Shown piece after piece: positions 3,292 to 33,944 of a stretch of 47,496 nucleotides of DNA. Source of the DNA: Oscillospiraceae bacterium. GTDB lineage: Bacteria; Bacillota; Clostridia; Oscillospirales; Acutalibacteraceae. The stretch is taken from NCBI GenBank assembly GCA_015066385.1, contig SVOJ01000021.1:1-47496 (forward strand), given 5' to 3'. The first letter of the stretch is position 1. The number at the start of each line of letters is the position of its first letter. A program made the translations under genes and the position numbers. The notes under the pieces were generated by a model, which made no database searches, was not told the origin of the DNA, and saw only the letters and a program-made list of their open reading frames with translations.

Positions 3292-6072
3292 TTACAGAAC
3301 TCTGCCCTTTCTCTTGTCGTTCATACGAAGGAAGATCTTGATGATTTCAAGACCGGGAACAACAGAGAAGCCGAGTCCGAAGGCGATGAACAGGTCTGTC
3401 AGGGACAGTGCACCTTCTACATGTTCAAAGGTAAGCGCAAGAGGAGCAAGGCTGAAGATGTTAGCAAGGGCGGGAACACAGACAACGATGAGGGTGAGAA
3501 TGGTGGTCAGCACAAAAGCACCGATCAGCCACCAGTTCTGGCTCTTCATGGTGAAGATGGAACCGTGCTGCGAACGCATGCAGATGGCTTTGAAGATTTC
3601 CATAAAGTTCATGGTCAGGAAAGCCATTGTTGTAGCTTCAAGTGCAATATTACCCTGAATGTCTGCAAGAGTCCAACCGGAGCCGCCGAATGCAATCTGA
3701 ACACCGATGAAGTAGGAAGCAATAACAACAGCGGCAAGGAAGATGCCCTGGGTTACCATGTCAAAGCCTGCACCGTTTGCGAAAACGGATTCGTTTGCAG
3801 GTCTGGGTTTTCTCTTCATGAGGTTGCTTTCTGCTTTTTCCATGCCGAGTGCAAGACCCGGAACGGAGTCTGTGACCATGTTGATCCACAGCAGGTGAGG
3901 TGCGGTGAAGAACTGCAGTTTCAGAACGGCGGAAATGAACATAACGAGAATTTCTGCCATGTTGGTGGAAAGCTGGAAGCCGAGAACCTTACGGACATTG
4001 TCGTAGATCTTTCTGCCTTCTTCAACAGCGTTGACTATGGTTGCAAAGTTGTCGTCTGCAAGAACCATGTCGGAAACGCCCTTGGTAACGTCGGTACCTG
4101 TGATACCCATGCCGATACCGATGTCTGCAGCCTTGATGGAGGGAGCGTCGTTAACGCCGTCACCGGTCATAGCCGTGACCTGACCGCGGGCTTTCCATGC
4201 TTTGACGATACGGGTCTTATGTTCGGGCTGCACACGTGCATAAACGGAATACTTGGTAACAAGGTCAACGAGTTCTTCGTCGGTGTAGTCTTCAAGATCC
4301 GCACCGAGAATGGCTTCGGATGCATCGGTGATGATGCCGAGGTCTTTTGCAATTGCAACAGCGGTATCCTTGTGGTCGCCCGTGATCATGATCGGACGGA
4401 TACCTGCACTGCGGCATTCTTCGATAGCGGGTTTGACTTCGGGACGGCAGGGGTCGATCATGCCGACGAAGCCGATGAAAGTCATGTTGTCTTCAAGCGC
4501 TTGGGCATCAAAAGAAGCGGGAGCTGCATCATATTCTCTGTAAGCGGCACCGAGAACGCGCAGGGCGCGGTCTGCAAAGCCTTTGATGCCTGCGGAAAGT
4601 TTTGAACGGAAAGCATCGTCAACGGGCTTCTTGGTGCCGTCGGTGTCGATGTAATGTGTGCAGTGCTTGACGAGGATTTCGCAAGCACCCTTGGTGTACT
4701 GAATGATCTGACCGTTGTGGTTGTGAACGGTGGACATCATCTTTCTGCCGGAATCAAACGGAGCTTCGCCGATTCTGGGATATTCAGCTTCCAGTTCATA
4801 CTTGGGCATGTTCAGTGCAAGACCGTAGTTGACAAGTGCGCATTCGGTCGGTTCGCCTGCAGCCTGGGTTTCGCCGGGCTTAACGGTAGCGTCGTTGCAG
4901 AGGGTCATGCAACGGGCAAGAAGGGTTTCGTCGAAAGCCGTTTTGTCAACGACTGTCATCTTGTTCTGGGTCAGTGTACCGGTCTTATCCGAGCAGATGA
5001 TCTGTGTGCAGCCGAGGGTTTCAACGGCGGTCAGTTTGCGGATGAGTGCCTGACGCTTGGACATGGCGGTAACGCCGAGGGAAAGAATAATGGTAACAAC
5101 GGCGGGCAGACCTTCGGGAATTGCCGCAACTGCAAGCGCAACAGCAAGAATGAAGGTGTCAAGTGCGGCCATGCCGAGAACGTCCCAACCTTCAAATGCG
5201 AAATGGAAACCGCCTTCAAAGGAAACAAGTTCGGTTACGATACCGTAAGCAAACATAAAGATACAGATGCCGATAACGATCTTGGTGAGGGTTTTGGAGA
5301 TTTCTCCCATCTTGATCTGCAGGGGAGTCTGTTCGGCTTCAGCCTGAGAGAGTGCTTCTGCAATCTTACCCATTTCGGTGTCCATGCCGATTGCTGTGAC
5401 AACAGCCTTGCCGCGGCCGTAAACTACGGTGGAGCCGGAGTACATCATATTTTTGCGGTCGCCGAGAGCAACGTCTTTTTCGCCTTCTTTGAGAGTCAGA
5501 AGGTCAACGAGTTTTGTTACGGGAACGCTTTCGCCGGTCAGAGCTGCTTCTTCGACTTTCATCGAATAGCTTTCAAGAATACGGCAGTCAGCGGGAACAG
5601 CATCGCCTGCTTCAAAAACAACAACGTCACCGATGGTGATGTCTTCGCTCTTGATAATCTGGATTTCGCCGTCACGGATGACTTTGCTGGTGGCCGCCGT
5701 CATTTCTTTGAGGGCATCAATGGCGGATTCAGCCTTGCTTTCCTGAATGAGGGACAGAACGGTGTTGATGATAACAACAACAAGAATGATGAAGAAGTCT
5801 GCAATGTCGGAACCGGAAATGGGTTTGCCGGAAGCTTTACTTTCAATGAAAGTGGTTACAAGGGTGATTCCTGCTGCGGCAAGAAGCATAATGATCATCG
5901 GGTCTGCAAGAGATTTGATGAACTTTTTGAAAAGGCTTTCCTTTTCGGCCTCTTTGAGTTTGTTTTTGCCGTACTTTTCAATTCGCTTGGTGGCTTCGGC
6001 AGTGGTAAGACCGCCTTCGGAGGCATCGATCTTTTTAAGAGCGTCCTCCTTGCTGACGAGATAGTAGCTCAT
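3292..6072 (-). CDS. P-type (P2A) divalent cation-transporting ATPase, calcium and/or manganese exporter
   Basis: 926 residues from the chosen ATG at 6072, which has TCCTTCCTT (AAGGAAGGA) 8 bp upstream; an upstream in-frame ATG at 6093 would place this ribosome site inside the coding region. Domains in order: N-terminal cation ATPase domain, actuator with LTGESVPV, TM4 with AIPEGLPAVV, phosphorylation site CSDKTGTLT, nucleotide domain, hinge MTGDGVNDAPSIKAADIG, then six C-terminal helices. The SERCA-type ion ligands are present: Glu in TM4 PEGLP, Glu in MAEILVMF (TM5), and Asn/Thr/Asp in INMVTDSVP (TM6). It pumps divalent cations out of the cytoplasm. The leader carries a yybP-ykoY riboswitch, which senses Mn2+, so manganese export or detoxification is a likely physiological role even though the ligands look Ca2+-type. 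Confidence 0.92.
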   Translation of the reverse strand: MSYYLVSKEDALKKIDASEGGLTTAEATKRIEKYGKNKLKEAEKESLFKKFIKSLADPMIIMLLAAAGITLVTTFIESKASGKPISGSDIADFFIILVVVIINTVLSLIQESKAESAIDALKEMTAATSKVIRDGEIQIIKSEDITIGDVVVFEAGDAVPADCRILESYSMKVEEAALTGESVPVTKLVDLLTLKEGEKDVALGDRKNMMYSGSTVVYGRGKAVVTAIGMDTEMGKIAEALSQAEAEQTPLQIKMGEISKTLTKIVIGICIFMFAYGIVTELVSFEGGFHFAFEGWDVLGMAALDTFILAVALAVAAIPEGLPAVVTIILSLGVTAMSKRQALIRKLTAVETLGCTQIICSDKTGTLTQNKMTVVDKTAFDETLLARCMTLCNDATVKPGETQAAGEPTECALVNYGLALNMPKYELEAEYPRIGEAPFDSGRKMMSTVHNHNGQIIQYTKGACEILVKHCTHYIDTDGTKKPVDDAFRSKLSAGIKGFADRALRVLGAAYREYDAAPASFDAQALEDNMTFIGFVGMIDPCRPEVKPAIEECRSAGIRPIMITGDHKDTAVAIAKDLGIITDASEAILGADLEDYTDEELVDLVTKYSVYARVQPEHKTRIVKAWKARGQVTAMTGDGVNDAPSIKAADIGIGMGITGTDVTKGVSDMVLADDNFATIVNAVEEGRKIYDNVRKVLGFQLSTNMAEILVMFISAVLKLQFFTAPHLLWINMVTDSVPGLALGMEKAESNLMKRKPRPANESVFANGAGFDMVTQGIFLAAVVIASYFIGVQIAFGGSGWTLADIQGNIALEATTMAFLTMNFMEIFKAICMRSQHGSIFTMKSQNWWLIGAFVLTTILTLIVVCVPALANIFSLAPLALTFEHVEGALSLTDLFIAFGLGFSVVPGLEIIKIFLRMNDKRKGRVL

Positions 6073-23039: not shown

Positions 23040-24245
23040 TTATTCTGCAAGCACTTCGGTGGCTTCAATTGTGATTTCCGGAACGGTTTCTGTTTCGGAA
23101 TTGAATTCAACAACATCACCGTCGGTCAGAACATCGCCGTCTGTGATTGCGTCGCCGTTTGTGATGACATCGCCGTTGGTAAGTACATCACCATCAGTCA
23201 GCACGGCATCGTTTTCAACGGTGGTTTCGTTGTCAACAACGTCTTCTGCTGCGGCGTAGTCAAATGTGCAGGTTACGGTGTCGGTGAATGTGAAGCAGAT
23301 CTTGAATTCACCGAGGTCTGCAAAACTGCCTTCACCTTTTGCTTCAAAAGTAACGAATGCATTCTTTGTGTAAGTAGCATTGAGAACCTGTTCGGTTTCC
23401 ATGTCAATTTCAAAAGTAACTGTGCAATCACGGTATTCAACACTGTAGTCGTTGATGGCTACTGCGGTGTTTACTTTTGCAAGTTCACTGAGAACATATT
23501 CTTTGTCAACCGTGTTGGTGAAATATTTGTTGATAACAGCGGAATCAGCAAACTGAATGGCAGTGGTTTCTTCAGCGGGCTGTGCAAGGAAGGAGAGTGT
23601 TGCTCTCATCTTGTTGTCGCAGACAAAAGTTTTGGACATCACGTCGCCGTTTCCGTAATACTGCTGTTCGCCGTTTTCGTCCGTAACAGGCTGATCAAGC
23701 AGTTCATTGCCGTCCATGTCGAATTCATACTTCGGTACATCTTCTTCATAAGCAATGGTTTCGCCTTCTTCATCGGTGACATTTTCAGTTGTCCAGTTTC
23801 TGGCGGTTTTGTCATTATAATTGACAACAGCGGCTACATCGGCATTGTCGATGGTTGCAAGAGCCGTGATTTCGGGAGCGGGTGCACTGAAGCCCTTCAT
23901 CAGATAGGTCTTGATGAAGCCAAGGGTATCATCAAGCGTATCAAGTGCTTCATTGCCGGCAAGTTCTTTGCCGTTGAGGTAAGCGGCATAATCTTCATCC
24001 GTCAGGGCTTTGGGATCATTGACGCTGAAACTTTCGCTGACATTGATCTTTGCGCCGGAAGCGTTGGATTTTTCAATGACGGAATTGATGTAAGAAACAA
24101 CATTTTCTTCGGGAACGGTATCCATTCTTACGAATACGGTAGTGGGTTCTTCCTGATCAGGAGTGTCATCCATGCAACCCGCAAAACTGATGACAAGCGA
24201 GAGAACAAGCAGAACGGACAAGGACATTGCAATAATTTTCTTCAT
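23040..24245 (-). CDS. Lipoprotein of unknown function with C-terminal TDGD/TNGD repeats
   Basis: 401 residues from ATG 24245, with GAAAGGGG upstream; the longer frame overlaps the promoter. The signal peptide ends in the lipobox SFAGC with C24. The body is acidic, alpha/beta, and has no recognised domain. Residues 349-377 are five 6-residue units (LTDGDV, LTNGDV, ITNGDA, ITDGDV, LTDGD), and a 24-residue Glu/Thr-rich end follows. The same Ser/Thr-Asp-Gly motif is found near the N-terminus of two other lipoproteins at 27305 and 28984. It should sit on the outer face of the membrane. Function unknown. Confidence 0.75.
   Translation of the reverse strand: MKKIIAMSLSVLLVLSLVISFAGCMDDTPDQEEPTTVFVRMDTVPEENVVSYINSVIEKSNASGAKINVSESFSVNDPKALTDEDYAAYLNGKELAGNEALDTLDDTLGFIKTYLMKGFSAPAPEITALATIDNADVAAVVNYNDKTARNWTTENVTDEEGETIAYEEDVPKYEFDMDGNELLDQPVTDENGEQQYYGNGDVMSKTFVCDNKMRATLSFLAQPAEETTAIQFADSAVINKYFTNTVDKEYVLSELAKVNTAVAINDYSVEYRDCTVTFEIDMETEQVLNATYTKNAFVTFEAKGEGSFADLGEFKICFTFTDTVTCTFDYAAAEDVVDNETTVENDAVLTDGDVLTNGDVITNGDAITDGDVLTDGDVVEFNSETETVPEITIEATEVLAE
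23115..23201 (-). repeat. 18-bp tandem coding repeat (TDGD units)
   Basis: About five imperfect copies of an 18-bp unit coding for [LI]-T-[DN]-G-D-[VA]. The copies differ mostly at third positions, so the protein repeat is kept while the DNA has drifted. Confidence 0.85.
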
Positions 24246-24288
24246 GCGAAAATACCCCTTTCGGATGTCAATATTTGATACAAAAATC

Positions 24289-24317
24289 ATTATACCAAAG
24301 ATTTACATGATTTGCAA
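24289..24317 (-). promoter_or_regulatory. Promoter of the TDGD-repeat lipoprotein
   Basis: TTGCAA (24317-24312), 17 bp, TGG-TATAAT (24294-24289) on the minus strand. Confidence 0.85.
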
Positions 24318-27009: not shown

Positions 27010-27047
27010 TTGACATTTGTTTATCATGATGTTACAATAATTGTAAC
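27010..27047 (+). promoter_or_regulatory. Promoter of the B12-controlled operon with an overlapping palindrome
   Basis: TTGACA (27010-27015), 17 bp, TACAAT (27033-27038). A perfect 7-3-7 palindrome GTTACAA-TAA-TTGTAAC (27031-27047) covers the -10 box and the expected start point. It could be a protein operator in addition to the riboswitch. Confidence 0.75.
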
Positions 27048-27216
27048 TGAATCACACGACTGCGTATCACCCTGATGATACGGCCGCACAAAACGCACGT
27101 GTGCGGTGCTGAGGAAATCCGGTGCGAATCCGGAGCAACAGCCATTACCGTAACTCTTTCTGAGAAGTCGGAATGCTCAGTCTTTCGTCTGTGAAACGGT
27201 TCCCGGGCAAAAGGGG
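27045..27216 (+). promoter_or_regulatory. Cobalamin (AdoCbl-type) riboswitch
   Basis: Recognised family elements: the GATACGGCCGCAC stem, a CGCACGTGTGCGGTGCTGAGGAAATCCGG core, the conserved TCCGGTGCGAATCCGGAGCA strand and loop, the B12-box-equivalent ACAGCCATTACCGTAACT, and GAGAAGTCGGAATGC. A closing helix can form between CACACGA (27052) and TCGTCTGTG (near 27187). The -10 box is just upstream, so the RNA starts at the aptamer. High cobalamin should repress the lipoprotein and S-component genes. The exact 3' edge is estimated. Confidence 0.9.
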
Positions 27217-27218
27217 AA

Positions 27219-27288
27219 CACGACACACAAGAAGAACCGATAAGGGGTTCTTTGTGTCGTGCTCTGATTTGCAGAGTACGATTTTTTT
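27219..27288 (+). terminator. Expression platform of the B12 riboswitch: overlapping antiterminator-like and terminator hairpins
   Basis: Hairpin 1 (27219-27261) pairs CACGACACACAA with TTTGTGTCGTG and GAACC with GGTTC. Hairpin 2 (27259-27279) pairs GTGCTCTG with CAGAGTAC and is followed by seven Ts (27282-27288), 16 bp before the ATG. The two share bases 27259-27261, so formation of one weakens the other, fitting transcription attenuation. Confidence 0.75.
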
Positions 27289-27304
27289 ATGAAAGGAACA
27301 CAAA

Positions 27305-27793
27305 ATGAACAGAAAACTTTTAGTCCTTATTTGCAGTCTGTTTGCTGTGCTTTGTCTTGTGTGCGGTTGTACGCAGGAAGCACCGCAGAATGAAACCGCA
27401 ACCGATGCTGTTTCCGATGGCAATCTCATGTCCGATGGTGATCTTGCCTCCGATGTCGATGCCGAAGCCATCTTTGAAGACGGTGCCGTGCTCGGCGAAG
27501 GTTCGATTGCGCTGACGGTAAAAGTTGTCGGTGCGGACGGTACTGAAAACACCTTTACCGTGAATACGGATGCTGATAACCTTGCAGATGCACTGCTGAA
27601 CGCAAACCTTGTTGACGGTGACGATGGTGCGTACGGATTGTATATCAAGTTTGTCAATGGCGTGCGTGCCGATTATGATCTTGACAAGGCCTATTGGTCT
27701 TTGCAGAAAAACGGTGAATTGCTGATGACAGGTTCTCACGAAACTCCCATTGCAGATGGTGAACAGTATGAACTCGTCTACACCGCAGGTTGA
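27305..27793 (+). CDS. Transcobalamin-like (DUF4430) lipoprotein under B12 control
   Basis: 162 residues. The signal peptide ends at the lipobox LVCGC with lipidated C22. Residues 31-56 are a Ser-Asp-Gly repeat linker (TDAVSDGNLMSDGDLASD). Residues 65-161 match DUF4430, the fold of the C-terminal beta domain of transcobalamin and intrinsic factor: a Leu-rich LADALLNANLV helix, YGLYIKFVNGV, YWSLQKNGE and a final DGEQYELVYT. AAAGGA precedes the ATG. The B12 riboswitch directly upstream and the S component directly downstream argue that it binds cobalamin or another corrinoid at the cell surface and hands it to the ECF transporter. Binding is inference. Confidence 0.85.
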   Translation: MNRKLLVLICSLFAVLCLVCGCTQEAPQNETATDAVSDGNLMSDGDLASDVDAEAIFEDGAVLGEGSIALTVKVVGADGTENTFTVNTDADNLADALLNANLVDGDDGAYGLYIKFVNGVRADYDLDKAYWSLQKNGELLMTGSHETPIADGEQYELVYTAG

Positions 27794-28349
27794 GAAGAAA
27801 AAAAACACTGAAAAAAAGAACGGTAAGGCCCGTGCGTTGCCTTTGGCAGACCTTGCTGTGTTTTCCATGTTTGCGGCTCTGATGTTCTGCTCTAAACAGT
27901 TGATGGAGTTTCTGCCGAATATCCATCTGCTCGGCATGTTCACCATGGTGCTGACGGTTGTGTACCGTAAATATGCGCTGATTCCGATTTATCTGTATGT
28001 CATTCTGCAGGGGCTGTATGCAGGTTTTTCCCTTTGGTGGATGCCGTATTTGTATATATGGACGGTTCTTTGGGGCATTACCATGCTATTGCCGAAAAAC
28101 ATGCCCGACAAAGTTGCCGCTGCGGTTTATCCGCTTGTGTGTGCATTGCACGGACTTTTGTACGGCGTTTTGTATTCCCCTGCGCAGGCATTGTTGTTCA
28201 GGCTTGATTTTGAACAGATGCTTGCATGGATCGCGGCAGGATTTCCTTATGATATTCTGCATTGTGTCGGCAATGCCGTTGCAGGACTTCTGATTTTTCC
28301 GCTGTCGCGCTTGCTGCGTAAACTGCGCAGTAAAACCGTATTCAGATAA
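27768..28349 (+). CDS. ECF transporter S component, predicted cobalamin/corrinoid-specific
   Basis: 193 residues from ATG 27768 (ATG 27756 is an alternative); either start lies inside the lipoprotein gene, giving an overlap of 26-38 bp and translational coupling. A basic cytoplasmic N-terminus of about 25 residues precedes five or six helices; the first carries FSMFAALMF, an AxxxA-like coupling motif of S components. Size and helix pattern fit the ECF substrate-binding family. The B12 riboswitch predicts a corrinoid substrate. No EcfA or EcfT gene is in the window, so it would use a shared energising module encoded elsewhere. A shared hairpin terminator follows. Confidence 0.82.
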   Translation: MNSSTPQVEKKKNTEKKNGKARALPLADLAVFSMFAALMFCSKQLMEFLPNIHLLGMFTMVLTVVYRKYALIPIYLYVILQGLYAGFSLWWMPYLYIWTVLWGITMLLPKNMPDKVAAAVYPLVCALHGLLYGVLYSPAQALLFRLDFEQMLAWIAAGFPYDILHCVGNAVAGLLIFPLSRLLRKLRSKTVFR

Positions 28350-28351
28350 AG

Positions 28352-28386
28352 AAATGAAGGGACTGTCCTGTTCAGCCCCTTCATTT
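28352..28386. terminator. Bidirectional terminator between the S component and DtxR-family genes
   Basis: AAATGAAGGG/CCCTTCATTT, a 10-bp perfect stem with a 15-base loop between the converging genes. The T tracts are short. Confidence 0.7.
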
Positions 28387-28387
28387 A

Positions 28388-28759
28388 TTATTGTTTGAAT
28401 TTTTCAAAATGCCGTTTTAAGCACTCGAATGTTTCGTCGCTGAGGTCATGTTCGATTTTGCAGGCATCCTCTTTGGCAGTTTCGGGGGAAACTCCCAATT
28501 GCATGAGCATATTTGTGATCACACAATGTCGCTCATAGGTCGATTGTGCAATTGCAAGCCCTTGTTCGGTTAGAGAAAGTGCACTGTGTTCGCCGATTTC
28601 AACAAGACCTTTTTCACGCAGTTTTTTCAACATTACACTGACGGTTGGTCTTGAAAAACCCAGATGTGTGCAAATATCAACCGCACGGACCTTTTCTTTT
28701 CGTTGACTTTCTATGAAAATGGCTTCTAAGTAATTCTCGGCTGATTCTCTGACTTGCAC
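28388..28759 (-). CDS. DtxR/MntR-family metal-dependent transcriptional regulator, short form
   Basis: 123 residues from GTG 28759, with a perfect AAGGAGG 7 bp upstream; the longer frame would read through promoter and ribosome site. An N-terminal winged helix (RAVDICTHLGFSRPTVSVMLKKLREKGLV) is followed by the metal-binding dimerisation domain with H in ERHCVI and E/E/H in KEDACKIEH. The MntR Asp of the first helix is replaced (ESAENYLEAIF), so metal choice may differ. There is no SH3-like third domain, as in MntR. It should repress or activate metal uptake genes with Mn2+ or Fe2+. No metal transporter is adjacent. Confidence 0.88.
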   Translation of the reverse strand: MQVRESAENYLEAIFIESQRKEKVRAVDICTHLGFSRPTVSVMLKKLREKGLVEIGEHSALSLTEQGLAIAQSTYERHCVITNMLMQLGVSPETAKEDACKIEHDLSDETFECLKRHFEKFKQ

Positions 28760-28785
28760 GGTGCACCTCCTTGTGTTTTTTTTAC

Positions 28786-28814
28786 AGTATATCATATTGG
28801 TTTTGTTTTTGCAA
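28786..28814 (-). promoter_or_regulatory. Promoter of the DtxR-family regulator
   Basis: TTGCAA (28814-28809), 17 bp, TATACT (28791-28786) on the minus strand. Confidence 0.8.
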
Positions 28815-28895
28815 GTGTCGAATCGTATGCTTGCTGTGCTTTGCATTTAAAAGGATATTAAATATTTACAAAAATGTAAGAAATATAAAAAAGCA

Positions 28896-28924: not shown

Positions 28925-28983
28925 TTTTTTATCCAAAAGTTACTGAAACGGTGACTTTTGAAATTTTAAGGAGGAAACCAAAC

Positions 28984-30237
28984 ATGAAAAAGTTTTCCAA
29001 GATCATTGCACTTCTTCTTTGCCTGAGCATGGTTGCCGGCTTTGCAGCCTGCGGCGGCACGGAAGATCCCACCCAACCTGCTACCGATGCAATTTCCGAC
29101 GGTAACGCAGACGATGCTCTCACCGACGGCAACGCCGCTGATGATGACGACAATGCAGATGCCGCATTCGACTTCTCCGAAGTCGGTCAGTACACTGCAG
29201 ACAACACCGAATACTTCATCGGTGCTACCGGCCCGCTTACCGGCGATACTTCTTCTTACGGTATCTCCGTACAGCAGGGTGCAACTCTTGCAGTTGAAGA
29301 AATCAATGCCAACGGCGGTCTCAACGGTGTTCTGTTCAAGTTCGACATGAAGGACGACAAGAGCACGGCAGCCGATGCTTCTACGGGTTACGATGCTCTT
29401 TACGAAGCAGGCATGCAGATTTCCATCGGTTCCGTTACTTCCGGTTCCTGCGAATCTTTCGCTTCCAGAGCTGACGAAGACGGCGTTTTCTTCATCACAC
29501 CTTCTGCTTCCGCAGCTTCCGTTATTGCAGCTTCCGACTATGCTTTCCGCGTATGCTTCGGTGACCCTGACCAGGGTATCCTTGCAGCTGAAGAACTGAC
29601 TGCAAACTTTGAAAACATCGGTGCGATCTACGATAACTCCGATCCCTACTCCACCGGTATCTATGATGCTTTCAAGGCAAAGATGGCTGAACTGAATGTT
29701 TCTTATATCGAACAGAGTTTCGATGCTGAAAACAACAGAGACTTCTCCACCCAGATCGAAGCACTCAAGGATTGCGATGCAATCTTCCTGCCCATCTACT
29801 ACACCGAAGCCGGCCTGATCGCAAAGACTTGCGTTTCCAAGGGCTGTGACGCTCTTCTCTTCGGTTGCGACGGTCTTGACGGTGTTGCAGGTCAGATCGA
29901 CGAAACCGTTACCAACACCATCAAGTACATCACTCCGTTCGATGTGAACAGTGAAGATGAACTTGTTGTTGATTTCGTAGCAGCTTACACCGACAAGTAC
30001 GGTGTTGCTCCCGACCAGTTTGCTGCAGACGGTTACGATGCAATCTATGCAATCTACAACGCAATGCTCAAAGCAGGTGTTGACAATGTGACGGTTGCTC
30101 CCGAAGTTCTCGGCGATGCTGTTGTTGCTGCCATCACTGCTGAAGATTTCGTTCTCAAGGGACTTACCGGTGAAATGACCTGGGACACCACCGGTGCCTG
30201 CACCAAGGTTCCCGTCATCGTTACGCTCGGTGAATAA
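28984..30237 (+). CDS. livJ: Branched-chain amino acid-type ABC transporter substrate-binding lipoprotein
   Basis: 417 residues from ATG 28984, with AAGGAGG 8 bp upstream. The lipobox is GFAAC with C23. Residues 34-58 form a Ser/Thr-Asp-Gly linker (ATDAISDGNADDALTDGN) followed by an Asp-rich stretch. The Peripla_BP_6 (LivJ) domain starts near 70: IGATGPLTGDTSSYG, then a two-lobe Leu/Ile/Val-binding fold ending VPVIVTLGE. Codon use is more C-ending than in the neighbours, typical of a highly expressed binding protein. It delivers a branched-chain amino acid or a similar small amide to LivHM. The ligand is predicted from family only. Confidence 0.92.
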   Translation: MKKFSKIIALLLCLSMVAGFAACGGTEDPTQPATDAISDGNADDALTDGNAADDDDNADAAFDFSEVGQYTADNTEYFIGATGPLTGDTSSYGISVQQGATLAVEEINANGGLNGVLFKFDMKDDKSTAADASTGYDALYEAGMQISIGSVTSGSCESFASRADEDGVFFITPSASAASVIAASDYAFRVCFGDPDQGILAAEELTANFENIGAIYDNSDPYSTGIYDAFKAKMAELNVSYIEQSFDAENNRDFSTQIEALKDCDAIFLPIYYTEAGLIAKTCVSKGCDALLFGCDGLDGVAGQIDETVTNTIKYITPFDVNSEDELVVDFVAAYTDKYGVAPDQFAADGYDAIYAIYNAMLKAGVDNVTVAPEVLGDAVVAAITAEDFVLKGLTGEMTWDTTGACTKVPVIVTLGE

Positions 30238-30272
30238 GAACCGTCCGGTAATTTCAAAAACAAAATGATTTA

Positions 30273-30391
30273 TGGCCGGGGGATGCAAGTCCCTCGGCCA
30301 AAACCGCTGTTTATCGGCCAAAAAAGATGAATACGGAATGACTGAAAATAGTATAAAAGGTTGAAAAAACGCAAATTCTGTCATTCCGTAT
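30273..30391 (+). promoter_or_regulatory. Intercistronic hairpins between livJ and livH
   Basis: The 197-bp gap holds an 11-bp GC-rich hairpin (TGGCCGGGGGA/TCCCTCGGCCA, 30273-30300) without a T tract, and a perfect 12-bp inverted repeat ATACGGAATGAC/GTCATTCCGTAT (30331-30342, 30380-30391). The first likely protects the 3' end of an abundant livJ message, as in mal-type operons. The second could attenuate livHMGF. Confidence 0.6.
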
Positions 30392-30434
30392 GCACCTTTT
30401 GCGGTGCAGAAAAAACAAAGCGAAGGAGTACACT

Positions 30435-31298
30435 ATGAGTACAATTTTTGACGGATTGAGCTTAGGGGCGATCTATGCCCTGATTGCCCTCGGTTATACC
30501 ATGGTTTACGGTATTGCCAAAATGCTCAACTTTGCACACGGCGATATTATCATGGTTGGTGCATATGCGATTCTGACAACCCTTGCCGCAGGCGGTCACA
30601 TCGGCCTTGCTCTTGTTGTGGCAATTGTTACCTGCGTCATATTCGGCATTGTCATTGAAAAAGTGGCATACAAGCCTCTTCGTGGGGCCTCACCGCTGGC
30701 AGTTCTGATTACGGCGATCGGTGTCAGTTACTTTTTACAGAGTATTGCACAAATTATTTTCGGTGCAAAGGCACAGACCGTTACGGTTGCCACATTCGGC
30801 ACGGTCAGTATCGGGACTGCCGAAATCAGCATTTCGTCCATTATTACGCTGATCGTCGGTGCGGTTATCATGGCAGGGCTTACCCTCTTTGTCAAGAACA
30901 CACGCACGGGTCGTGCCATGCTCGCTGTCAGTGAAGACAGAGGTGCGGCACAGCTGATGGGCATCAACGTCAACCGTATCATCATGATCACCTTTGCCAT
31001 CGGTTCTGCTTTGGCGGCTTGTGCAAGTATTTTCTATCTGATGCAGATTCCGTCCACTGAACCCACACTCGGCTCCATGCCCGGCATCAAGGCATTTACG
31101 GCAGCCGTTATCGGCGGCATCGGTTCCATTCCCGGTGCCATGATCGGCGGTGTGTTGCTTGGTGTGATCGAAAAAATCTGCCTGAGCATTCCCGTTCTTG
31201 CCCCCTACACAACGGCGGTTGAATTTGCAATGTTGATTCTGATTCTGCTTGTAAGACCCATCGGTCTGCTCGGCAAAAAGAGAAGAGAGAAGGTGTAA
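30435..31298 (+). CDS. livH: Branched-chain amino acid-type ABC permease LivH
   Basis: 287 residues from ATG 30435, preceded by GAAGGAG. Eight or so helices with the LivH hallmarks SLGAIYALIALGYTMVYGIAKMLNFAHGDI at the N-terminus and GIKAFTAAVIGGIGSIPGAMIGG near the end (the coupling EAA-like loop). It forms the membrane channel with LivM. livM starts 2 bp after its stop. Confidence 0.95.
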   Translation: MSTIFDGLSLGAIYALIALGYTMVYGIAKMLNFAHGDIIMVGAYAILTTLAAGGHIGLALVVAIVTCVIFGIVIEKVAYKPLRGASPLAVLITAIGVSYFLQSIAQIIFGAKAQTVTVATFGTVSIGTAEISISSIITLIVGAVIMAGLTLFVKNTRTGRAMLAVSEDRGAAQLMGINVNRIIMITFAIGSALAACASIFYLMQIPSTEPTLGSMPGIKAFTAAVIGGIGSIPGAMIGGVLLGVIEKICLSIPVLAPYTTAVEFAMLILILLVRPIGLLGKKRREKV

Positions 31299-31300
31299 GC

Positions 31301-32449
31301 ATGGCTAAATTGAAAAAAATCAAAATTTCAGATTATTTCTGCTACATTATGGTAGCGGCAGTCATGCTCGTATCCTTTGTGGTGGCACAGACCGGCAATC
31401 TTCCTCGTTCTTATTCCAATCTGCTTGTGCAGATCGCATACAGCATCATTCTTGCCGTTTCGCTGAACCTTGTTGTCGGCTTCCTCGGCGAATTGAGCCT
31501 CGGCCATGCAGGCTTTATGTGCGTGGGTGCATACGTCGGCAGTTACATAGCCATGCAGTTGGCTGAAGTGATCGACAATAAGCTGATCGTTCTGCTTCTC
31601 AGTATGATCATCGGCGGCCTGCTTGCAGCTTTTTTCGGCTTCCTTGTCGGTCTTCCCGCTTTGCGACTGAAAGGCGACTATCTTGCCATTGTTACGCTTG
31701 CATTCGGCGAAATTGTTCGTACCATTTTTAAGAATATGTCCGTGTTCGGCAAAGCCATGGGTTTGAGCACACAGGCTATCAAGTACGATACCCGTAAGGA
31801 TACCTCGTTGTATCTTGTATCCTTTATTACGGTTCTTGTTGTGCTGTTCTTTGTACAGAACCTCATCCGCAGCAAGCACGGCAGAGCCATCACCGCAATC
31901 CGCGATAATGAGATTGCCGCCAAAGCCATGGGCATCAATGTCACATTCTACAAACTGTTTGTATTCGTCATTGCTGCTTTCTTTGCAGGCATGGCGGGTG
32001 TTATCTACGGCCATTACACCACCCCCGTTCTTTACTCGTTCTTCTCTTATAACTACTCCATTGAAATTCTTGTTATGGTTGTGCTTGGTGGCATGGCAAG
32101 CATCAACGGTTCCATCATTGCCGCAGCACTCATCACCTTTGTCAACTTCCAGTTGCAAAGCCACCTTTCGGGCGATCAGGCAGCTTTGAAATATCTCATT
32201 TATGCACTTATTCTCATTGTGCTTGTTATTTTCAATAACGCTCCCAAACTTGCTCCCATCAAGGATAAACTTTCACCCAAAACATTGCTTGCCAATGCAA
32301 AGGGGCGTCGCCATCCCGGTGAAATCCGCAGTGATACAGGCGACTGGCGTGTCATTCCCAGCAAGATCAAAATGGACGAAGTGTTGTCCGTAGACTTACA
32401 GCAGAATACCGAATTCACCCCCGACAAACCGCAGAAAGGAGGAAAATAA
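31301..32449 (+). CDS. livM: Branched-chain amino acid-type ABC permease LivM
   Basis: 382 residues. Family segments are NLVVGFLGELSLGHAGFMCVGAYVG, LRLKGDYLAIVTLAFGEIVR and the coupling loop MAGVIYG…EILVMVVLGGMASINGS. About ten helices are followed by a hydrophilic C-terminal tail of about 65 residues after the last helix (from about 318), longer than usual for LivM. It pairs with LivH. livG begins 1 bp after the stop, with AAGGAGG inside the last codons. Confidence 0.95.
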   Translation: MAKLKKIKISDYFCYIMVAAVMLVSFVVAQTGNLPRSYSNLLVQIAYSIILAVSLNLVVGFLGELSLGHAGFMCVGAYVGSYIAMQLAEVIDNKLIVLLLSMIIGGLLAAFFGFLVGLPALRLKGDYLAIVTLAFGEIVRTIFKNMSVFGKAMGLSTQAIKYDTRKDTSLYLVSFITVLVVLFFVQNLIRSKHGRAITAIRDNEIAAKAMGINVTFYKLFVFVIAAFFAGMAGVIYGHYTTPVLYSFFSYNYSIEILVMVVLGGMASINGSIIAAALITFVNFQLQSHLSGDQAALKYLIYALILIVLVIFNNAPKLAPIKDKLSPKTLLANAKGRRHPGEIRSDTGDWRVIPSKIKMDEVLSVDLQQNTEFTPDKPQKGGK

Positions 32450-32450
32450 C

Positions 32451-33221
32451 ATGAGCGATATCGTATTGAAAACTGAAAACTTAGGCATTTCCTTCGGCGG
32501 TCTGAAAGCGGTTGACAATGTAAACATTGAAATCAAAAGAAAACAGCTTTACGGTCTTGTCGGTCCCAACGGTGCAGGTAAAACCACTGTTTTCAACCTC
32601 CTGACGGGTGTTTATCAGCCCACCACCGGTTGTTTTTATCTTGACGGTGAAAAACTGACAGGCAAAACGCAGGAGCAGATCAACCATAAAGGCATTGCCC
32701 GTACTTTCCAGAATATCCGCCTTTTCAATAATATGAGCGTTATCCGCAATGTTATGGTCGGACTTCACAATCAGCCCGAATTCAAGTGCAATCCTTTCGT
32801 GAGCCTGTTCCGTCTTCCTCATCATTTCAAAACCGAAAAAGCCATGCGTGAAAAGGCAAAAGAGATTCTTCGTATTTTTGATCTTGAAGACGAACGCAAC
32901 AACCTTGCCTGCAATCTTCCTTACGGTAAGCAGAGAAAACTTGAAATCGCCCGTGCGCTTGCCACCAATCCGAAACTTTTGCTGCTGGATGAACCTGCCG
33001 CAGGTATGAACCCGTACGAAACGGAAGACCTCATGAAGATCATCCGCCGCATCCGTGACGAGTTTGATCTGACCATTTTGCTGATTGAACACGATATGAA
33101 ATTTGTTTCGGGACTTTGCGACGAAATCACCGTTCTCAACTTCGGTACCGTTCTTGCACAGGGCAAAACGGAAGAAGCACTCAACAACCCCGAAGTTATC
33201 AAAGCCTATATCGGCGAATAA
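32451..33221 (+). CDS. livG: ABC transporter ATPase LivG
   Basis: 256 residues. Walker A GPNGAGKTT near 37-45, the LivG insertion with ARTFQNIRLFNNMSV, a signature variant LPYGKQRKLEIAR and Walker B LLLLDEPAAGMNP. The first of two nucleotide-binding subunits that power the LivHM channel. The signature lacks the classic LSGGQ, which is normal for LivG. Confidence 0.96.
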   Translation: MSDIVLKTENLGISFGGLKAVDNVNIEIKRKQLYGLVGPNGAGKTTVFNLLTGVYQPTTGCFYLDGEKLTGKTQEQINHKGIARTFQNIRLFNNMSVIRNVMVGLHNQPEFKCNPFVSLFRLPHHFKTEKAMREKAKEILRIFDLEDERNNLACNLPYGKQRKLEIARALATNPKLLLLDEPAAGMNPYETEDLMKIIRRIRDEFDLTILLIEHDMKFVSGLCDEITVLNFGTVLAQGKTEEALNNPEVIKAYIGE

Positions 33222-33233
33222 GGAGGAAACGAA

Positions 33234-33944
33234 ATGGCATTGCTCGAAGTCAAAAATCTCGAAGTTTGCTACGGCGTTATCCGTGCACTGAAAGGCATCA
33301 ATTTTGAAGTCAACCAAGGGGAAATCGTGTCTCTCATCGGTGCGAACGGTGCAGGCAAAACCACCACCATGCAGAGCATCATGGGCCTTATTCCCATCAA
33401 AAGCGGCACCGTGTCCTACGACGGACAGGTCATCAACAAAATTCCCGGTCACAAACTCGTATCCCTCGGTATGAGCCAGGTTCCCGAAGGCCGCCGTGTG
33501 TTTCAGGAACTGACCGTTTATGAAAATCTTGTCCTCGGTGCCTATGCACAGAAAGACAAAAAACGAATCAAGGACGACATTGACGAAATCTGCACCCGTT
33601 TCCCCCGTCTGGGAGAACGCAAAAAACAGGTTGCAGGTACATTGTCGGGCGGTGAACAGCAGATGCTGGCAATGGGACGTGCCATGATGAGTCACCCGAA
33701 ACTGCTGATGCTCGATGAGCCGTCCATGGGACTGTCCCCGCTGCTTGTGGATCAGGTTTTTGAAATCATCAAGGACTATCACAAGTCCGGCGTTACCATT
33801 CTGCTTGTTGAACAGAATGCAAAGAAAGCACTTTCCATTTCCGACCGTGCCTATGTTCTTGAAACAGGCTCGATCACCATGGAAGGAAAGGCTTCCGACC
33901 TGCTCAATGATGAAAGTGTCAAAAAAGCCTATCTCGGAGAATAA
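33234..33944 (+). CDS. livF: ABC transporter ATPase LivF
   Basis: 236 residues. Walker A GANGAGKTT near 36-44, Q-loop GLIP…VPEGRRVFQELTVYENL, signature LSGGEQQMLAMGRAM and Walker B LLMLDEPSMGLSP. AAGGAGG lies 7 bp before the ATG. Last gene of the livJHMGF operon; an intrinsic terminator follows. Confidence 0.96.
   Translation: MALLEVKNLEVCYGVIRALKGINFEVNQGEIVSLIGANGAGKTTTMQSIMGLIPIKSGTVSYDGQVINKIPGHKLVSLGMSQVPEGRRVFQELTVYENLVLGAYAQKDKKRIKDDIDEICTRFPRLGERKKQVAGTLSGGEQQMLAMGRAMMSHPKLLMLDEPSMGLSPLLVDQVFEIIKDYHKSGVTILLVEQNAKKALSISDRAYVLETGSITMEGKASDLLNDESVKKAYLGE

Follow-up and report, generated by a model that had tools for sequence, protein, structure and literature searches.

A riboswitch-controlled operon pairing a transcobalamin-like lipoprotein with a CbrT-type S component: a probable corrinoid uptake system in an Oscillospiraceae bacterium

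Introduction

How does a gut bacterium that looks like a corrinoid user without its own ring synthesis obtain these cofactors? The question is raised by an operon in a 47,496-nucleotide stretch of DNA from an Oscillospiraceae bacterium (contig SVOJ01000021.1 of assembly GCA_015066385.1; this whole stretch is called the window below). At positions 27010-28349 a promoter, a leader RNA, a lipoprotein gene and a gene for the S component of an energy-coupling factor (ECF) transporter read as a single operon, followed by a stem-loop (Table 1). Which transporters for B12 and B12 precursors are encoded in human gut genomes has been called an open problem (PMC6593275). A preliminary description made from the sequence alone had listed promoter, riboswitch, terminator, lipoprotein and S component in this order. 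That observation was confirmed; it was seen rightly, yet two of the four parts are missed at standard thresholds. Based on our computational analysis, the locus is probably a corrinoid-repressed uptake operon encoding a lipoprotein for capture and a CbrT-type S component.

Table 1. Features of the operon in window coordinates
Feature	Position	Strand	Basis and remarks
Sigma-A-type promoter, TTGACA-17-TACAAT	27010..27038	+	11/12 consensus matches; TG before second hexamer
Outer leader of riboswitch	from about 27045	+	
Cobalamin-type riboswitch aptamer core (P3, P4, variable hairpin)	27108..27186	+	Model R2, covariation, weak AdoCbl-II match
Long hairpin over 5' half of terminator; candidate antiterminator	27216..27264	+	-22.5 kcal/mol; 0/200 shuffles fold as well
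Intrinsic terminator, hairpin 27256-27282 plus T tract	27256..27290	+	Hairpin -16.2 kcal/mol
Lipoprotein, 162 aa, lipobox Cys22, acidic linker, C-terminal DUF4430/transcobalamin-like beta-grasp	27305..27793	+	Open reading frame (ORF), Pfam, model
Beta-grasp domain, residues 61-162	27485..27790	+	Structure model (model range 66-162)
ECF S component, CbrT lineage	27768..28349	+	Likely start ATG 27768; ORF opens TTG 27750; 26-nt overlap with lipoprotein gene
Stem-loop 3' of S gene	28352..28386	.	Scan listed - strand; stem palindromic

Results

The leader RNA carries a cobalamin-type riboswitch that escapes standard thresholds. An Rfam scan of the window returned no family at gathering level. AdoCbl-II (RF01689) scored 22.3 bits at 27094-27187, under its gathering score of 36.5, and also stayed under this score in seven relatives (24.3-31.4 bits). 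The Cobalamin family (RF00174, gathering score 31.5 bits) had no match in the window, nor in the organism's own genome under strict filters. Upstream regions of relatives were gathered, those with a common core were chosen by pattern, and 28 of 30 were aligned (alignment A4). The consensus that RNAalifold derived from the first riboswitch alignment paired mostly invariant columns, and its model R1 was left unused. In its place a hand-given structure of P3, P4 and a variable hairpin was used, and model R2 was built from the 28 sequences, the window's own included. Standard pairs fill 97.7% of the 383 cells of these three helices. None of 500 shuffles matched the alignment in pairing, in the number of double-change cells or in covariation score, its eight pairs with changes on both sides were reached by 11 of 500, and slid structures were paired to at most 47.5%. 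The fixed core letters stem from the picking pattern, and P3 is biased towards the structure as its starts were chosen for best pairing, a fit from which the variable hairpin was free.

Applied to the window, R2 matches 27108-27186 with 81.8 bits, a score to be read with the fact that this sequence is among its 28, and at E up to 0.001 the site is the only one in the own genome. Twelve R2-bearing loci, all part of the model and eleven of them among the 13 highest-scoring, were scanned with Rfam, and none had a cobalamin family at gathering level. The window riboswitch is thus a coherent variant missed by Rfam thresholds. Its corrinoid function is supported by genomic place: R2 sites lie 5' of the corrin gene CbiC in one genome (G054) and of FecCD and CbiC in another (G020), so that the covarying P3/P4 core stands 5' of corrinoid genes. 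The B12 riboswitch of the preliminary description is therefore well supported by the R2 match and the covarying helices, with none at Rfam gathering level. The riboswitch's own terminator, also claimed there, was found as a hairpin and T tract 3' of the aptamer. A longer hairpin that overlaps the terminator would serve as antiterminator, giving the usual layout of a transcription-terminating switch. A terminator-like hairpin 3' of the aptamer was found in 55 of 68 relatives by a rough rule, some examples being doubtful. The sigma-A promoter claimed upstream is present as a consensus match; its call rests on place and match quality, and the promoter scan yielded 2 hits compared with 2.2 in shuffles, i.e. 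no excess.

Both proteins could be assigned to families with a link to B12. The lipoprotein has the lipobox LVCGC with Cys22 (by eye), and its C-terminal domain reaches 28.8 bits for DUF4430 (PF14478; Pfam cut-off 23.8). The structure model has the fold of the beta domain of B12 carriers, and fold and conserved positions are shared with the beta domain of human transcobalamin, haptocorrin and intrinsic factor. This is in agreement with the DUF4430 domain and transcobalamin fold proposed from the sequence. The lipoprotein probably binds corrinoids. Its closest solved structure is PDB 3u7z (RUMGNA_00854 of R. gnavus, 41% identity), which is labelled a putative metal binding protein; cobalamin suggests itself as a candidate ligand for that protein. 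Acidic linkers with repeated [ST]DG[DN] units are common to the exported proteins at 23040-24290, 27305-27793 and 28951-30237 (by eye) and may be a shared surface-linker style in this genome.

In case of the S component, Pfam and NCBIfam searches named no family at E up to 0.1, while a profile matched the CbrT chain 6fnp_A at E 7.5e-22 and the structure model has the S-component fold. Both folds are well supported. CbrT is a proven B12 S component, characterised by Santos et al. 2018 as part of ECF-CbrT of Lactobacillus delbrueckii (PMC5997447), and the profile, by which alone the kinship is visible, bears out the claim of an S component and places it in a B12 lineage. Its substrate is very likely a corrinoid. 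ATG 27768 is taken as the likely start, as an MNS start is shared by the two closest aligned relatives (by eye). With this start the genes overlap as the preliminary description had stated, and by a rough start-codon rule the lipoprotein and S genes overlap in 73 of 94 pairs. The overlap suggests translational coupling; the statement that it forces near-equal synthesis was too strong.

The two genes and the riboswitch are conserved together. An S-component search found matches in 22 of 59 relatives' genomes, in 23 rows of which 21 were clear (E 1e-13 or better) and two weak. A DUF4430-type ORF lay directly 5' of the S gene in all 21 clear rows and in neither weak one. A B12 riboswitch was present at 16 of the 21 clear loci: eight by RF00174, seven by R2 (five of these seven were in the R2 model) and the window's own. 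The five loci where none was found were L010, L011, L012 (56 nt of upstream sequence only), L014 and L024. Named genomes were scanned with a profile, which gave 584 confirmed relatives; the best 80 were kept, a sample leaning to close relatives and to metagenome-assembled genomes (MAGs) from ruminant guts. Among these best 80 of 584, DUF4430 stood directly 5' of the S gene at 77 loci (exceptions L042, L094 and L102), and R2 matched 69 loci at E 2e-8 or better. At 25 of the 80 loci the sequence went into building R2 or is identical to one that did, and 44 of the remaining 55 match R2. RF00174 adds L061, L069, L089, L093 and L103, bringing the riboswitch to 74 of the 80. It was not found at L036, L087 (weak R2, E 0.024), L094, L102, L056 and L065, the contig ending 74 nt upstream in L056 and 67 nt upstream in L065. 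Pairs mostly lacking B12 riboswitches in other genomes, named in the preliminary description as an outcome that would speak against it, were not what these surveys returned; B12 control and conserved pairing are both supported.

Seen from the lipoprotein side, DUF4430 is present in 50 of the 59 relatives. After removal of five listed rows below cut-off, 76 matches were compared with the positions of RF00174 and R2 sites (E up to 0.001). For 43 of them a site precedes the gene on its own strand at a distance of no more than 5 kb, against a chance expectation of about 0.1; six of the R2 sites had gone into the R2 model. No match had a site on the wrong side. The other 33 had none within 5 kb, and 27 of these none within 10 kb. 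Across the phylum, S components of the window's type (A1) were found in 96 of 398 genomes, DUF4430 in 121 and RF00174 in 374, so that a riboswitch somewhere in the genome says little. DUF4430 lay within 10 kb upstream of A1, on the same strand, in at least 72 of the 96 genomes (99 of 102 A1 rows used, three second fragments left out), with one control pair on the wrong side. Among the matches listed, the pair was adjacent within 200 bases in nine of the 96. Larger clusters are thus more frequent in the phylum than the two-gene form, which is in the minority.

Some of these clusters resemble transcobalamin in domain make-up, i.e. toroid plus DUF4430. In L193 an RF00174 riboswitch (G276:C7:38576-38782) directly precedes an SLH surface protein in which two DUF4430 stretches are combined with a prenyltransferase-type toroid that passes the Pfam cut-off; next come another, smaller DUF4430 protein and an S component of type A1. 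Proteins with DUF4430 and toroid also occur in L185 and L183, with the toroid over cut-off in L193 only. L185 contains an SLH-DUF4430 protein (toroid below cut-off), a DUF4430 protein, EcfT, a double ABC ATPase, an SLH-toroid protein and the S component; R2, the sole riboswitch model tried there, found no riboswitch. In L181, RF00174, DUF4430, the S component and a cobalamin adenosyltransferase stand in a row.

The own genome has nine matches to the B12-binding domain, eight of them over cut-off. Among these proteins are a MetH-like one beside methylenetetrahydrofolate reductase, a corrinoid protein and a B12 radical SAM enzyme; a corrinoid-activation-like protein lies near another match. Most of these names rest on matches under NCBIfam curated cut-offs. 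CbiC was not found in the own genome, which is 97% complete, so that absences are not proof. Both of its FecCD (BtuC family) matches are below cut-off, one of them being the window ORF 30390-31298, a branched-chain amino acid permease by place. No second A1-type S component was found. Since B12-binding proteins are present while CbiC and over-cut-off FecCD are absent, the organism appears to use corrinoids without making the ring itself, and the operon appears to be the genome's best candidate corrinoid importer. One EcfT, adjoined by two ECF ATPases, lies on another contig. The S gene thus stands apart from its EcfA/A'/T module, as in group II ECF transporters, and the module is presumably shared by S components.

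Several observations were made around the main subject. Downstream of the operon, and convergent with it, lies a gene for an MntR/DtxR-like metal-dependent regulator (28388-28846, minus strand), followed by a likely branched-chain amino acid ABC operon (28951-33944, plus strand; binding protein, then two permeases and two ATPases, by eye). In L069 a ZTP riboswitch (5350-5433) lies just 3' of the S gene and a T-box at 1160-1409. In two genomes of the same genus, G006 and G014 (L187, L190), the R2 riboswitch occurs together with a protein of the lipoprotein family; the stretches retrieved had no ORF flagged as an A1-type S component.

Discussion

We propose the following mechanism. At low intracellular corrinoid the leader RNA would read through its terminator, an OFF-type switch, and both genes would be made. 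The lipoprotein, on the outer face of the cell membrane, would bind corrinoids via its transcobalamin-type beta domain and hand the ligand to the CbrT-type S component. This would dock on the ECF module encoded on the other contig and deliver the ligand inside. The handover is the less secure part, and we favour it by a modest degree.

A number of results weigh against this mechanism. As single sequences, the lipoprotein reaches only E 0.33 with transcobalamin-1 and the S component a non-significant E 0.077 with the 6fnp chain (phmmer to PDB). Foldseek gave the S model no significant E-value, and 6fnp was not among its VIA-align rows. In L042 the riboswitch directly precedes an S gene and DUF4430 is missing; its MAG (RGIG8470) also contains the full pair, at L030, which offers a natural with/without comparison. 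Six phylum genomes (G120, G158, G192, G222, G297, G301) have an adjacent pair without RF00174 under strict filters, and R2 found nothing near the pair in the four of them represented by L177-L180. No B12 riboswitch was detected at the Enterococcus raffinosus pair either (L213; annotated as DUF4430 domain-containing protein, then ECF transporter S component, with a 38-nt overlap). Riboswitch control is common and not part of the pair's definition. Finally, ECF module and CbrT support growth of E. coli at 1 nM cobalamin without any capture protein (PMC5997447).

This last result also fits an assistant role, in which the lipoprotein binds no corrinoid, helps the S component in folding, membrane orientation or ECF docking, and keeps its beta-grasp by descent. 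Conserved pairing and overlap would suit any partner role, and the label of 3u7z mentions only metal binding. Ligand binding is nonetheless favoured by the L193 chain, where transcobalamin's two halves are joined behind a B12 riboswitch, a point limited by the sub-cut-off toroids of the L185 and L183 DUF4430 chains, and we regard the assistant role as improbable. Much the same holds for import of a corrinoid precursor or lower-ligand part, i.e. cobinamide, or alpha-ribazole as for CblT, in place of complete cobamides: CbrT accepts cobinamide as well (PMC5997447), lower-ligand salvage is the role given to the transporter CblT (PMC6461909) and a cobalamin-class cblT riboswitch is known (PMC9600662), whereas the S component here falls in the CbrT lineage (by its profile match to the CbrT chain) and the lipoprotein domain is that of carriers of whole cobalamin. 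That the lipoprotein pirates B12 from other carriers or bacteria for import by another system, as BtuG can take B12 from intrinsic factor (PMC6143338), is very unlikely, given an S component in the same operon and a genome in which neither an over-cut-off FecCD permease nor a second A1-type S component was found.

A bolder form of the proposed uptake mechanism, which we consider doubtful, is a split transcobalamin. The beta domain of the lipoprotein would cap the outward-open S component with one corrinoid between them, the S component replacing the toroid domain, and closing of the composite site would load the importer. In the larger operons, the toroid-DUF4430 surface protein might act upstream in the relay. 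In L008 the lipoprotein and S genes are in the same frame, but since S components have a cytoplasmic N-terminus and the linker is short, docking based on a read-through chain of the two would be misleading. No lipoprotein-S fusion was flagged among the ORFs of the collected relative loci. Members of the ECF class are not known to have an extracellular binding protein of their own; a split transcobalamin, if true, would mean that an ECF importer uses one.

The general idea of B12 scavenging by bacterial transcobalamin-like proteins has been in print since 2007. Burroughs et al. (PMC1796856) described a transcobalamin-like clade of the soluble-ligand-binding beta-grasp (SLBB) superfamily, mostly secreted or surface proteins of low-GC Gram-positives with toroid fusions and operons with CbiO/CbiQ, predicted to scavenge B12 or its precursors, and proposed a transfer to animals. 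The words riboswitch and lipoprotein are absent from that text, and its abstract and sections 5, 7 and 8 name no S component. The domain here is of the same clade, standing alone and paired with a solitary S component under a riboswitch. Among the matches listed in the open-licence literature, as far as its excerpts go, no description of a DUF4430-CbrT pair was found. New are the counted association of the two families, a minimal operon of just two genes whose S component is solitary, a riboswitch variant under Rfam thresholds and the genome logic. The pair points to a simple capture-and-import system in a gut bacterium, a compact two-gene importer candidate in a genome where no other importer was found. 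It also gives the widespread DUF4430 a candidate function and provides a bacterial relative, of a size suited to purification, of the B12-carrier domain of animals.

The operon shares core sequence order and helices with the AdoCbl-II and Cobalamin riboswitches (RF01689, RF00174), at scores that do not reach gathering level. With ECF-CbrT it has in common the S lineage, the shared (group II) ECF module and the proposed import, B12 and cobinamide in the case of CbrT, which works in E. coli without a capture protein, unlike the arrangement proposed here (PMC5997447). The L181 row is close to the L. delbrueckii cluster nrdJ-cbrS-cbrT-pduO, in which cbrS, mentioned once and undescribed in that passage, could be the counterpart of the lipoprotein. 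In the preliminary description the arrangement had been called a Gram-positive counterpart of BtuG-type capture. The likeness holds for function, as BtuG and BtuH of Bacteroides are accessory proteins for B12 capture at riboswitch-controlled or transport loci (PMC6143338, PMC8941943), and not for fold: BtuG is a beta-propeller working with the outer-membrane protein BtuB (PMC6977713), whereas the window protein is modelled as a beta-grasp. Of the interpretation as a whole, B12 control, the beta-domain fold, the B12-lineage S component and the conserved pairing were supported, forced near-equal synthesis was too strong, and the BtuG comparison held for function only. Because of the beta-grasp, transcobalamin and BtuF are nearer comparisons than BtuG. 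The closest likeness in domain is with human transcobalamin, haptocorrin and intrinsic factor, from which the window protein differs in having no alpha (toroid) domain and in being anchored to the membrane.
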